Shown: one piece after another, positions 21,007-60,758 of the stretch | Position numbering within the stretch: position 1 is the first letter of the stretch | Layout of the letters: every line of letters begins with the position of its first letter | Assembly (NCBI RefSeq): GCF_015550425.1 | Contig: NZ_JADNAT010000008.1 | Location: 101,631 to 165,630, forward strand | Direction of reading: 5' to 3' | Origin: Clostridium sp. 1001275B_160808_H3 | GTDB taxonomy: Bacteria; Bacillota; Clostridia; Clostridiales; Clostridiaceae | DNA length: 64,000 nt | Made by a program: the position numbers and the translations under genes | Notes under the pieces: model-generated | What the model was told of the DNA's origin: nothing | What the model saw: only the letters and a program-made list of their open reading frames with translations | Database searches by the model: none

Positions 21007-21771
21007 CTATTTTTCTTTTATTCTCATTTTTCTTATTAATAAATATGCCACTGTAGCTAATACTACAGATATAATGCTAAAGGTTGAGATAGTCATATAT
21101 ACATTTCTAGGTAAAATCCCCAAAATATAAAATACCCATTCTCCAATTTTTCCTGTTAAATATGGAAAATTTAAGGCCATTATATAAAATCCCATATTAA
21201 ATATTATAATTAGTAATATTGGGATAATTGATATTACAGTCTTCATTAATTTATTGCATTTATAATAAAGCATAGTTATTACAAACCCTAAAATAAATGC
21301 CATTAAATATACAGATGCTTGAAATAAAAACGTATTAAAAAGCGTTTCTATACTATTACTTTGAATCCAACCATTATTAGCATAATTAGAAATATTAATA
21401 TAATCAGTGTATATCATGTCATAATTAGTTGGACAATTAACAAAAATGTTATATATTCTATTTAGAATTATATCTATAAATGACATCCCTATAGATATTG
21501 GAACCATTGATAATACTGTTCCATAAAAGTAACTCTTTCTAGATAAGTTATTTCCCTTTATAAAATAAAAATTTTCCTTAAACATATTTAATCCCACAAC
21601 AAATATAAATATTGCAGAAGAAAGCTCTATTCCTGATGATGATACCGCTCCATCACTATTATAAGAAAGTATTGTAAGGAGAACGCATATCGAAATGAAT
21701 ACAAAATAAAACATTAATATTGAATTTTTTAAAGAGCTTAAATTATATTTAACTACTGATTTCACCTTCAT
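21007..21771 (-). CDS. ABC transporter permease (YtrC/ABC-2 type)
   Basis: 254 residues with about six hydrophobic helices (for example ILMFYFVFISICVLLTIL, ISIIPILLIIIFNMGFYIM). It has no signal peptide and ends in a short basic tail. Its ATG overlaps the ATPase stop as TAATG, so translation is coupled. It is the last gene of a GntR-ATPase-permease operon, the layout of the B. subtilis ytr locus and related cell-envelope-stress exporters. The exported or imported compound is unknown. Confidence 0.82.
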   Translation of the reverse strand: MKVKSVVKYNLSSLKNSILMFYFVFISICVLLTILSYNSDGAVSSSGIELSSAIFIFVVGLNMFKENFYFIKGNNLSRKSYFYGTVLSMVPISIGMSFIDIILNRIYNIFVNCPTNYDMIYTDYINISNYANNGWIQSNSIETLFNTFLFQASVYLMAFILGFVITMLYYKCNKLMKTVISIIPILLIIIFNMGFYIMALNFPYLTGKIGEWVFYILGILPRNVYMTISTFSIISVVLATVAYLLIRKMRIKEK

Positions 21772-22646
21772 TATTTAACTTCCTCCTCTCCTGTTAAATG
21801 AATAAACAATTTTTGAAGTTCAACTTTTGAAATTTCTAATCCTAATTCTACTATTTCCTTTTTACTTTCTTTAGTTAATCCTCCAATGATTGTAGCTTCC
21901 TTAAATCCAGCTATAGTTTCTATATTAATACAATTCTTGCCTGCTAAATATTTATCAACTTTATCAGCGGCACCCGATACTAAGTAAGCTTCTCCTAGTA
22001 AGCCTTCTACTTCTCTATCACCTAAAACTTTCCCATCTTTAATTATTATTACTTTTTCCAAAATCTCTGAAACTTCTTCTATAATATGAGTCGAAAGCAC
22101 TATAGTCTTTGGCTTATCTATATAATTTGCAACTAGTTCTTTATAAAACATATCTCTATGATTTGCATCCAATCCTAAGACTGGCTCATCAAAAAGTAAT
22201 ATTTCAGCTCCTGATGATAAAGTTATTATTATTTTGCATATTGAAGAATATCCAGTAGATAAATCTTTAAATTTTTTATCAACATTAAGTCCAAACTTTT
22301 TGCTTAAATTTAATGCATATTCCATATCAAAATTATTATAAAACTCTTTTGTCCATTTAAATAAATCCTTAATTTTTAAACTTGGCGGGTATAAATCTTG
22401 CTCTGTCATAAAATAAATCTTATCATTCAACTTATCATTTTCTATAACATTCTCACCATCTATTGTAATTTTACCTTCAGTCGGAAATATTCTATTAGTT
22501 ATAAGATTTAGTAAAGTTGTTTTTCCTGCACCATTTCTTCCTAATAATCCATATATCTTATTTTCCTCTATTGTTAATGAAATATTGTCTAAAACTCTAT
22601 GATTTCCATACTCCTTAGTTAAATTAGATATTTTTATTAATGACAT
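21771..22646 (-). CDS. ABC transporter ATP-binding protein
   Basis: 291 residues. Walker A GRNGAGKTTLL (about 36-46), a shortened signature region LSTGYSSICKI in place of the canonical LSGGQ, Walker B ILLFDEPVLGLD and the H-loop LSTH are visible, followed by a helical C-terminal extension. The degenerate LSTGYSS signature is usual in this YtrB-like group. It begins three bases after the GntR gene stop and overlaps the permease start, so the three genes form one operon. Confidence 0.9.
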   Translation of the reverse strand: MSLIKISNLTKEYGNHRVLDNISLTIEENKIYGLLGRNGAGKTTLLNLITNRIFPTEGKITIDGENVIENDKLNDKIYFMTEQDLYPPSLKIKDLFKWTKEFYNNFDMEYALNLSKKFGLNVDKKFKDLSTGYSSICKIIITLSSGAEILLFDEPVLGLDANHRDMFYKELVANYIDKPKTIVLSTHIIEEVSEILEKVIIIKDGKVLGDREVEGLLGEAYLVSGAADKVDKYLAGKNCINIETIAGFKEATIIGGLTKESKKEIVELGLEISKVELQKLFIHLTGEEEVK

Positions 22647-22649
22647 TAG

Positions 22650-23012
22650 CTACTCCCCCTTTTTAATCATTTCTATAATATCTGTAGTGGAAATATTAAG
22701 CTTTTTTGCTTCTTCAATTAATGAAACTATATAATTAGAATAAAACTTATCTTTTCTCTTTTGTATTAACTTTTCTTTGCTTCCACTTGAAACAAACATT
22801 CCAACACCTCTTCTTTTATAAATAATTCCTTCATCTACTAATAAATTAAAGCCTTTCGCTACAGTTGCTGGATTAATTTTGAATTTTACAGATATCTCTG
22901 TTGTTGATGGTATTACTTCATCTTCATTAAAAACTCCATTTAAAATTCCATCTTCTATTGATTGTGCTATTTGAATATATATAGGTATTTCACTAGAAAA
23001 ATCTAAATTCAT
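22650..23012 (-). CDS. GntR-family (YtrA subfamily) repressor
   Basis: 120 residues: an N-terminal winged helix (IYIQIAQSIEDGIL ... IPSTTEISVKFKINPATVAKGFNLLVDEGIIYKRRGVGMFV, about 11-77) and a short helical tail of some 40 residues, the compact YtrA form. AAAAGGAGGT precedes the ATG. It probably represses its own operon with the ATPase and permease and is relieved by a cell-wall-targeting compound, as in YtrA; the inducer is not known. Confidence 0.92.
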   Translation of the reverse strand: MNLDFSSEIPIYIQIAQSIEDGILNGVFNEDEVIPSTTEISVKFKINPATVAKGFNLLVDEGIIYKRRGVGMFVSSGSKEKLIQKRKDKFYSNYIVSLIEEAKKLNISTTDIIEMIKKGE

Positions 23013-24567: not shown

Positions 24568-24597
24568 AAAAAAACCACATAGTCTCTACTATGTGGT
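24568..24597 (-). terminator. Second leader terminator of the NSS gene
   Basis: ACCACATAG, loop TAGAGA, CTATGTGGT, then a run of T. Its arms are identical to those of the first terminator 22 bases upstream. Confidence 0.85.
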
Positions 24598-24611: not shown

Positions 24612-24643
24612 AAAAAATACCACATAGCATTTATCTATGTGGT
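24612..24643 (-). terminator. First leader terminator of the NSS gene (regions 3 and 4)
   Basis: ACCACATAG (24643-24635), loop ATAAATG, CTATGTGGT (24627-24619), then A and six T. It competes with the antiterminator formed by region 2. Confidence 0.85.
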
Positions 24644-24752
24644 TAAATTATCTCTATAAATCTGAGCATAATTAATATTTATAACCATCATAGACACAAA
24701 CCTTAAATCTTGCTTACGGCTTGCATCTATAATTACTTTATAAATACAAGTC

Positions 24753-24821
24753 CTATCTATAATAGCTATAATAATAATTCATATTAACTTTTATTTCTTT
24801 AAAGTTAATTCTTTTGCTCAT
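24753..24821 (-). CDS. Tyrosine-rich leader peptide (22 residues)
   Basis: An ATG at 24821 with GGGAGA six bases upstream opens 22 codons ending at TAG (24755-24753). The peptide starts MSKRINFKEIK and ends with MNYYYSYYR: five Tyr codons, all TAT, within six positions, directly over pairing region 1. Too short for a stable protein, it is placed exactly as the trp and his leader peptides are. Its role would be to report charged tRNA-Tyr supply by ribosome stalling. Confidence 0.8.
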   Translation of the reverse strand: MSKRINFKEIKVNMNYYYSYYR

Positions 24822-24850: not shown

Positions 24851-24879
24851 ATATTAGCACCCTATTATATAAGTGTCAA
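24851..24879 (-). promoter_or_regulatory. Promoter of the NSS leader
   Basis: A perfect TTGACA (24879-24874), 17-base spacer, TAATAT (24856-24851). Transcription would start about 20 bases before the leader-peptide ATG. Confidence 0.7.
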
Positions 24880-58452: not shown

Positions 58453-58543
58453 TGGCGGAGAAACCGGGATTTGAACCCGGGCGCCAGTTGCCCGACCTAC
58501 GCCCTTAGCAGGGGCGCCTCTTCAGCCACTTGAGTATTTCTCC
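58453..58543 (-). tRNA. tRNA-Ser (anticodon GCT)
   Basis: 91 bases on the minus strand, with the long variable arm typical of tRNA-Ser, anticodon loop CTGCTAA, T loop TTCAAAT, discriminator G and encoded CCA. It reads AGC and AGU. It follows a tRNA-Ser(TGA) by 24 bases and appears co-transcribed with it. Confidence 0.97.
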
Positions 58544-58567
58544 ACGTGCCTTCTATTGAAGTTTTTA

Positions 58568-58658
58568 TGGCGGAGAGAGTGGGATTTGAACCCACGGTAC
58601 CCGCAAAGGTACGCCGGTTTTCAAGACCGGTGCCTTAAGCCAGCTCGACCATCTCTCC
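58568..58658 (-). tRNA. tRNA-Ser (anticodon TGA), copy 1
   Basis: 91 bases on the minus strand, anticodon loop CTTGAAA, long variable arm, discriminator G and encoded CCA. Identical over its length to the copy at 58832-58922. Confidence 0.97.
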
Positions 58659-58682
58659 ATATTATGTCTTGCGACAAGTATT

Positions 58683-58711
58683 ATTATAGCAACCACTCTA
58701 TATATTGTCAA
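58683..58711 (-). promoter_or_regulatory. Consensus promoter of tRNA-Ser copy 1
   Basis: A perfect TTGACA (58711-58706), 17 bases, TATAAT (58688-58683). Confidence 0.85.
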
Positions 58712-58800
58712 TTATTATTTTAAACTTTTTTATTATTTTTATTATATAATAAATATTTAGTAAAATAATTTTTTAATGAGTTTCGCCTATATTTAATTTA

Positions 58801-58831
58801 AAATGCATCTAAGAAAACTTAGATGCATCTT
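58801..58831 (-). terminator. Terminator of tRNA-Ser copy 2
   Basis: AGATGCATCTAAG/CTTAGATGCAT stem with T-run on the minus strand, abutting the CCA end. Confidence 0.85.
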
Positions 58832-58922
58832 TGGCGGAGAGAGTGGGATTTGAACCCACGGTACCCGCAAAGGTACGCCGGTTTTCAAGACCGGTGCCTT
58901 AAGCCAGCTCGACCATCTCTCC
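58832..58922 (-). tRNA. tRNA-Ser (anticodon TGA), copy 2
   Basis: Identical to the copy at 58568-58658. It has its own promoter and terminator, 173 bases away. Confidence 0.97.
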
Positions 58923-60532: not shown

Positions 60533-60758
60533 AAAAAAGAACCTTTCCCCAAAATAAGGGACGAAAGATTCCGCGTTGCCACCCTAATTAATAGCAAAAT
60601 ATGCTATTCTCTTAAATAAATTTAACGGTTTAAGCCGTACTGCTCATCACAGTCCCTCCAAGGTGGATTCATAACATTTTACTATCGATTTACACCAACC
60701 ACCGACTCTCTTAAAATAAATATTGTTATTACTAGCCTCTTCAACAGTTTTATTTTAT
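60533..60758 (-). promoter_or_regulatory. T-box leader of serS
   Basis: On the minus strand: stem I starts with AAGAGAGTCGGTGGTTGGTG, a specifier region ATGAATCCACC (TCC would be a Ser codon), and the T-box/antiterminator core AGGGTGGCAACGCGG. The TGGC bulge matches the G-CCA end of tRNA-Ser. A terminator follows (TCTTTCGTCCCTT ... GGGGAAAGG then T7). Uncharged tRNA-Ser would turn serS on. Confidence 0.93.

Follow-up and report, generated by a model that had tools for sequence, protein, structure and literature searches.

T-boxes are the usual regulators of amino-acid genes in Firmicutes. Attenuation by leader peptides has been described in these bacteria as well. His leader peptides precede hisS* and hisZ in bacilli (Naville and Gautheret, 2010, PMC2965389), and His attenuators occur in the B. 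cereus group, in relatives of C. difficile and in Erysipelotrichales (Ashniev et al., 2022, PMC9413887). The ilv-leu operon of S. aureus has a Leu-rich attenuator peptide with experimental support (PMC5794164), and among reported upstream ORF (uORF) motifs, one with Phe is located before aroF in Acholeplasma (PMC8632094). Two Rfam families are also relevant. The E. faecium sRNA_2410, namesake of RF02863, was seen as two short transcripts (PMC5593968); the terms ‘leader’ and ‘attenuat’ are absent from the main text of that paper. For the trpB motif (RF04312), the authors left an attenuator possible (PMC11109978). We found no description of Tyr or Phe leader attenuation in Clostridium or other Firmicutes, nor of a shared scaffold, in the open-licence PubMed Central literature (without supplements). 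The original prediction regarded a tyrosine version in a Clostridium as undescribed, which agrees with this search, but His and branched-chain leader-peptide attenuation was already known in Firmicutes. The kind of regulation itself is known. Within the literature searched, what appears to be new is specificity for Tyr and Phe, transporter genes as targets, a scaffold common to all members, and the relay described below.

The window analyzed here is a stretch of 64,000 nucleotides from Clostridium sp. 1001275B_160808_H3. Between 24879 and 24540 on its minus strand, a promoter, a ribosome site, a leader ORF, a structured RNA, two terminators and an NSS gene follow each other in this order (Table 1). 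This RNA is very probably (roughly 0.88) a ribosome-mediated transcription attenuator that turns the NSS transporter up when charged tRNA-Tyr is scarce. A short ORF with a ribosome site lies ahead of the gene, as in known attenuators, and its peptide ends in N-YYY-S-YY-R-stop, with five Tyr codons inside 24776-24759. The NSS protein has 4us3 as its top PDB sequence match. NSS proteins near MhsT/LeuT import aromatic amino acids, and tyrosine would be the substrate in this case. The genes downstream of the NSS gene (21007-23012, minus strand) encode a GntR-type regulator, an ABC ATPase and a third protein, which matches no Pfam family.

Table 1. Features and pairings of the leader locus, in window coordinates.
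Feature	Position	Strand	Remarks
Sigma-70-type promoter	24851..24879	-	TTGACA - 17 nt - TAATAT
Leader ORF, 22 codons	24753..24821	-	MSKRINFKEIKVNMNYYYSYYR*; SD GGGAG at 24833-24829
Segment 1 (Tyr codons, Arg codon, stop)	24754..24770	-	pairs with segment 2
Segment A, adjoining the stop codon	24740..24752	-	pairs with B
Segment B	24718..24730	-	pairs with A or C
Segment C, overlapping segment 2	24690..24702	-	pairs with B
Segment 2	24680..24696	-	with segment 1, protector; with segment 3, antiterminator
Segment 3	24635..24645	-	pairs with segment 2 or segment 4
Segment 4 and U-run, terminator 1	24612..24627	-	segment 4 at 24627-24619
Tandem intrinsic terminator 2	24568..24597	-	24597-24589 with 24582-24574, then U-run
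NSS (PF00209) sodium-dependent amino-acid symporter, 436 aa	23230..24540	-	predicted target gene
Helix 1:2	24770-24754 with 24696-24680	-	
Helix A:B	24752-24740 with 24730-24718	-	
Helix B:C	24730-24718 with 24702-24690	-	
Helix 2:3	24693-24682 with 24645-24635	-	
Helix 3:4	24643-24635 with 24627-24619	-	

The elements named in the original prediction are all present on the minus strand where it had placed them, including the leader ORF with its ribosome site and Tyr-rich end, to which the promoter can now be added. Its four segments are real, but the pairings A:B and B:C and the second terminator had been overlooked. Helix 1:2, put at 14 pairs, in fact comprises 17 consecutive pairs. The 2:3 pairing (11 pairs and one bulged A) falls within the expected 10-14 pairs with one bulge, and 3:4 is the anticipated 9-bp terminator stem with its T6 tract (U6 in the RNA). 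A:B is paired at 12 of 13 positions and its alternative B:C at 13 of 13. The window leader and its relatives thereby show a hallmark of attenuators, pairings that exclude one another and lead up to an intrinsic terminator. The leader folds with a z of -7.36 (equally low in 0/200 shuffles), its longest unbroken helix of 18 bp was attained in 0/400 dinucleotide shuffles (maximum 17), and an SD-led ORF with five identical residues in the last nine codons arose in 3/1000 shuffles. From these controls, a chance origin of the leader is unlikely. The same ORF filter applied to the whole window passes three ORFs, the two besides the leader being Leu-rich.

A T-box (RF00230) was rejected for this leader, with no match there; the same search finds one at 60554-60753 (minus strand, 143.6 bits), so the window organism has T-boxes too. 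The gene following that T-box is presumably a seryl-tRNA synthetase gene, as the start of its product reads like one. Three 88-nt tRNA genes with near-equal scores are clustered at 58456-58922 of the window (minus strand).

Scanning genome contigs with the window transporter yielded 262 confirmed relatives, and the analysis continued with the best 80 of these 262. The scaffold is located ahead of the NSS gene in 24 of the 29 best relatives, 16 with Tyr codons (YY..YYR; L001-L013, L016, L022, L028) and eight with Phe codons (L015, L018, L020, L023, L024, L025, L027, L029). At 56 loci (L014, L017, L019, L021, L026, L030-L080) the broad model R2 (see below) finds no match at E <= 0.01. Leader L012 has a sense codon where the stop usually sits. 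The exchange of Tyr for Phe goes together with changes in segments 2 and 3 (GGTTATA to GGCTAAA and, in many leaders, AACC to AGCC). Duplexes of a Phe segment 1 with a Tyr segment 2 reach a mean of -9.3 kcal/mol versus -13.3 with their own partner, and those of a Tyr segment 1 with a Phe segment 2 -15.0 versus -16.6 kcal/mol. The alignment of orthologous leaders proposed along with the original prediction thus shows the Tyr codons and the alternative pairings kept, with compensatory changes. In a phylogeny of 60 NSS proteins, six changes of codon label are required (minimum 3; shuffle mean 26.3, 0/200 as low), with three Phe-labelled proteins inside a Tyr clade. Judged from these sequences, codon specificity is tracking the protein lineage, with several switches. 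In C. sartagoforme NM50 (G002), three NSS paralogues are preceded by a Tyr, a Phe and a Leu version (L003, L024, L213). In L024, L025, L027 and L029, the stretch between both terminators shares CCTAGG or CCTAGA, which could in some copies pair with a ribosome-site region reading CTAGGAGG; this may add a second layer of control, at translation.

The family was searched with two covariance models. R1 was built from 27 leaders, 26 before NSS genes and one before a BrnQ-type gene, and has matches in 20 of 68 genomes of the genus (E <= 0.001) and in 57 of 225 genomes of the order (E <= 0.01); for two of the latter (G088, G061), the match is a lone terminator or a decayed copy. Weaker R1 matches represent the same scaffold with other codon runs. 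R2, built from 80 leaders, was run against 247 genomes of a second order and matches 80 of them; a single genome holds as many as four distinct copies, as in G1137 (L248, L262, L263, L271). Its 148 matches comprise the 129 loci of set 2 (109 and 20 others), three of G227 that set 1 also contains, 13 antisense matches on terminators and three short ones, one of which is the sole match of G964. Of the 129 loci of set 2, 128 have a leader that includes a codon run; the exception (L354) is a bare terminator. The original reading as a Tyr-sensing attenuator is supported by this conservation, but the locus does not stand alone: it belongs to a codon-swappable family.

Set 1 holds 99 hand-listed leaders, omitting the same place under a second id, and some of its peptides were picked by eye (e.g., the Leu leaders L095, L199, L213). 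Five order-scan matches lie outside set 1: the Leu leaders L161 and L176, the Phe leader L177, L178 (terminator only) and the decayed L179. L179, at about 400-490, retains the ORF start and the terminator and lacks the codon run along with most of the switch. For set 2 and the order-scan matches, leader ORFs were picked by position and ribosome site, blind to residue content. Gene families were assigned by best BLASTP match among eleven references, all of which have a Pfam or NCBIfam match of their own, with the hisZ and TrpX-like references scoring under the NCBIfam cut-offs; ‘HisX-like’ denotes a family-3 binding protein (PF00497), named by family and not by substrate. Four leaders (L112, L251, L338, L343) have no downstream gene in the available stretch. 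In L112, the DNA from about 1660, after the first terminator, resembles what we take to be a group II intron between attenuator and gene.

The codon run follows the gene. Among 227 leaders read, 86 have His runs, 85 of them before a hisS, hisZ or HisX-like binding protein gene, as against 0 of 141 leaders with Tyr, Phe, Leu or Trp runs. By set, His runs precede these genes in 26/26 (set 1) and 59/60 cases (set 2), or 25/26 and 54/60 for hisS and hisZ alone, and non-His runs in 0/73 and 0/68; Fisher p values are 2e-24 (set 1) and 2e-36 (set 2), for leaders that are related and in part near-identical, so that the trials are not independent. L208, a tie, was counted as Tyr in the codon tally and as His in the codon-gene match. 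The His exception, L308, precedes a gene that is BLASTP-similar to an NhaC-type protein and matches no Pfam family. Tyr, Phe or mixed runs are found before NSS (42), BrnQ-type (9), PF02653 ABC permease (9) and TrpX-like binding protein genes (2) in set 1, and before ABC permease (31), BrnQ-type (16), NSS (7), TrpX-like (4), NhaC-type (1) and DAHP synthase genes (1) in set 2. Leu runs precede LeuT-like NSS genes nine times in set 1 and five times in set 2. The match of a codon run to its cognate gene is firm for hisS and hisZ, and for the transporters, including the window gene, the run would indicate the amino acid.

The sole Trp run (L190, NNWRNWSY*) lies before an NSS gene; in this leader, segment 2 (CTATGATGACCA) is complementary to TGGTCAT within the run, and segment 3 reads GGTCACATAG. 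The DAHP synthase leader (L333, G662:C3:48831-48976; GYYFYFYYDV*) is Tyr/Phe-rich and a marginal match (E 2.2e-4), its gene being assigned with Pfam, and may connect to the uORF motif reported before aroF in Acholeplasma (PMC8632094). BrnQ-type leaders mix Tyr and Phe codons, which makes their specificity ambiguous. Synonymous codons vary within the runs (TAT 108/TAC 12, TTT 107/TTC 23, CAT 64/CAC 15), and Leu runs use five Leu codons from both codon boxes. Across specificities, 71 of 185 distinct leaders have Asn, mostly AAT, at -3 of the codon run and 47 of 185 have Lys at -5. Doubled terminators occur in 47 of the 99 leaders of set 1 and in 0/25 of the His ones.

In the alignment of 27 leaders, the fold of 1:2, A:B and 3:4 (the termination fold) is 95.9% paired, and in the alignment of 80 leaders, covering five amino acids and 80 of 85 loci, 92.8%; slid controls for the 27 leaders give 30-48%. 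Slid controls (22-47% paired) retain relatedness but favor a structure drawn from the same sequences. Both sides have changed in 11 of 39 pairs among the 27 leaders, a number seen in 0/500 shuffles, with the proviso for this and all following shuffle tests that relatedness of the sequences inflates them. For the 80 leaders, 31 of 39 pairs are two-sided. In the 27 leaders, 2:3 is 93.6% paired, with three two-sided pairs (8/500 shuffles as high), and B:C is 95.7% paired, with two-sided cells and a covariation score attained in 0/500 shuffles; the two two-sided pairs of B:C are no better than shuffles (326/500 as high), nor are further pair types in 2:3 (498/500) and B:C (460/500). The 80-leader alignment was fitted to the termination fold, so that B:C and 2:3 lie outside that fit. 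There, B:C is 94.4% paired, with seven two-sided pairs (22/500 shuffles as high) and 45 two-sided cells (0/500), and 2:3 is 87.5% paired, with eight two-sided pairs (2/500).

Folding was done on 26 of the 27 leaders (L085 was left out) with the ribosome footprint masked. At equilibrium, the free window leader forms 1:2 at 0.96 and 3:4 at 0.98, and 1:2 forms in 17 of the 26 free leaders. A stalled ribosome favors B:C and 3:4, with 2:3 above 0.5 in at most four of 26. The equilibrium version of the trp model was rejected, as a stall yields B:C instead of 2:3, and we therefore turned to a relay model in which A:B persists. In the relay folding, A:B is kept once formed, a kinetic assumption that was imposed and not simulated. 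With A:B held, 1:2 forms in 20 of 26 leaders lacking a ribosome, with 2:3 above 0.5 in five of 26, and a stall at the first, middle or last run codon gives 2:3 in 22, 23 and 19 of 26. For leading edges from P+13 to P+16 these counts are 19-22, 23 and 16-23; at P+12 a first-codon stall gives 2:3 in just 13 of 26, and at P+18 a last-codon stall switches state (0/26). In each of the 26 leaders, the leading edge of a ribosome at the stop reaches 5-8 nt into A and blocks A:B; B:C then forms in 26/26 and 2:3 in 0/26, the latter at each edge tried (P+12 to P+18).

In the proposed relay, 1:2 with the nested A:B would form when no ribosome is translating, leaving segment 3 free for 3:4 to terminate transcription. 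A ribosome stalled on the Tyr codons would cover segment 1 and leave A free. A:B would then form first, before C is made, so that C and segment 2 remain free and 2:3 could form ahead of the synthesis of segment 4, allowing RNA polymerase to read through. A ribosome reaching the stop would cover A; B:C would form and lock the 5' half of segment 2, and 3:4 would terminate. Elsewhere, the scaffold is re-specified: a different codon run comes with matching changes in segments 2 and 3. The original prediction came with the caution that a ribosome at the stop codon cannot cover region 2. The gap is real, at 56 nt, and the A:B/B:C relay offers a plausible answer, with the signal of the stop-codon ribosome reaching segment 2 via A and B. 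The relay is a geometric and thermodynamic argument that includes the imposed kinetic assumption.

The helices A:B and B:C might instead just pause the polymerase or space the parts, with termination resulting solely from 1:2 after ribosome release, as in plain four-segment trp-type attenuation. The trp/his logic works without a relay, and 1:2 alone accounts for the OFF state in 20 of 26 ribosome-free leaders (17 of 26 at equilibrium). We nevertheless consider this unlikely, given that conservation of B:C equals that of the other helices (94.4% paired and 45 two-sided cells, 0/500 shuffles) and that the stop-codon ribosome projects into A in every leader folded. The physical principle of the attenuator would be identical in a sensor of general translation slowdown, like those before antibiotic-response genes, but the runs are amino-acid-specific and matched to amino-acid genes, which makes such a sensor highly improbable here.

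Nascent-peptide arrest, for which TnaC is the precedent, would reverse the sign of regulation: peptide and free amino acid would arrest the ribosome at the stop, and the gene would be induced when the amino acid is plentiful. Many leaders retain the stop, the Arg ahead of it and a K-x-N element upstream of the run, but no common motif beyond the run and K-x-N was seen across the Tyr, Phe, Leu, His and Trp versions, the codon run matches the gene, and a ribosome masked at the stop leads to B:C and no antiterminator. We regard arrest as very improbable. A riboswitch aptamer or trans-acting sRNA with an incidental ORF would fit the filing of RF02863 as sRNA in Rfam and the two short transcripts in E. 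faecium (PMC5593968). These transcripts would fit tandem terminators, and an ORF with a codon run that changes with the gene is found at 128 of 129 set 2 loci. With the leader ORF and run near-constant and the run following the gene, the riboswitch and sRNA readings were rejected as barely credible.

With regard to the Rfam families, RF02863 is part of the family described here: its consensus holds AGC UAC UUU AGA UAG, corresponding to the leader ORF end, as well as A:B and 1:2, although it is filed as sRNA. The window scores 39.0 bits (E 4.6e-5), below the cut-off of 61 bits, and the Phe leaders L020, L025 and L029 score above it. P1 and the terminator of RF04312 align with B:C and 3:4 of the present scaffold. 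Its cut-off of 59 bits lies above the window (38.1 bits) and its relatives, and no member above the cut-off was found in 68, 291, 4, 8 and 392 genomes (overlapping groups). We see about an even chance that codon-swappable relay attenuators, with RF02863 and possibly RF04312 as pieces, form a class widespread among Clostridia and in some neighboring lineages, a ribosome-reading counterpart of the T-box, in which the A:B/B:C exchange passes the ribosome position to a distant antiterminator and specificity for Tyr, Phe, Leu, His or Trp is switched by co-mutating the run and segments 2 and 3. The codon run would then predict the amino acid of uncharacterized transporters, the ‘sRNA’ RF02863 would be reassigned, and the re-specified switches would form a natural series for studying how ribosome position directs RNA folding. 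One scaffold is reused up to four times per genome in lineages where T-boxes are usual.

Compared with known systems, the T-box is likewise one scaffold re-specified by codon at amino-acid genes of Firmicutes, but the present switch would read a translating ribosome instead of uncharged tRNA. The Firmicutes His attenuators similarly have His runs before hisS*, hisZ and his operons, and the published Peptostreptococcaceae ones are probably His members of the present family; the accessible text of both papers describes His and contains no Tyr, Phe or Trp members, common scaffold or relay (PMC2965389, PMC9413887). The ilv-leu attenuator of S. aureus is another case of attenuation in Firmicutes, differing in its biosynthetic operon and branched-chain codons (PMC5794164). 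With the trp-, his- and phe-type attenuators of Proteobacteria, the present leaders have in common an ORF with cognate codons, exclusive hairpins and an intrinsic terminator, whereas here the stop lies inside segment 1, five helices would form a relay, terminators are often doubled, most target genes apart from the His class encode transporters, and a single scaffold is used for five amino acids.
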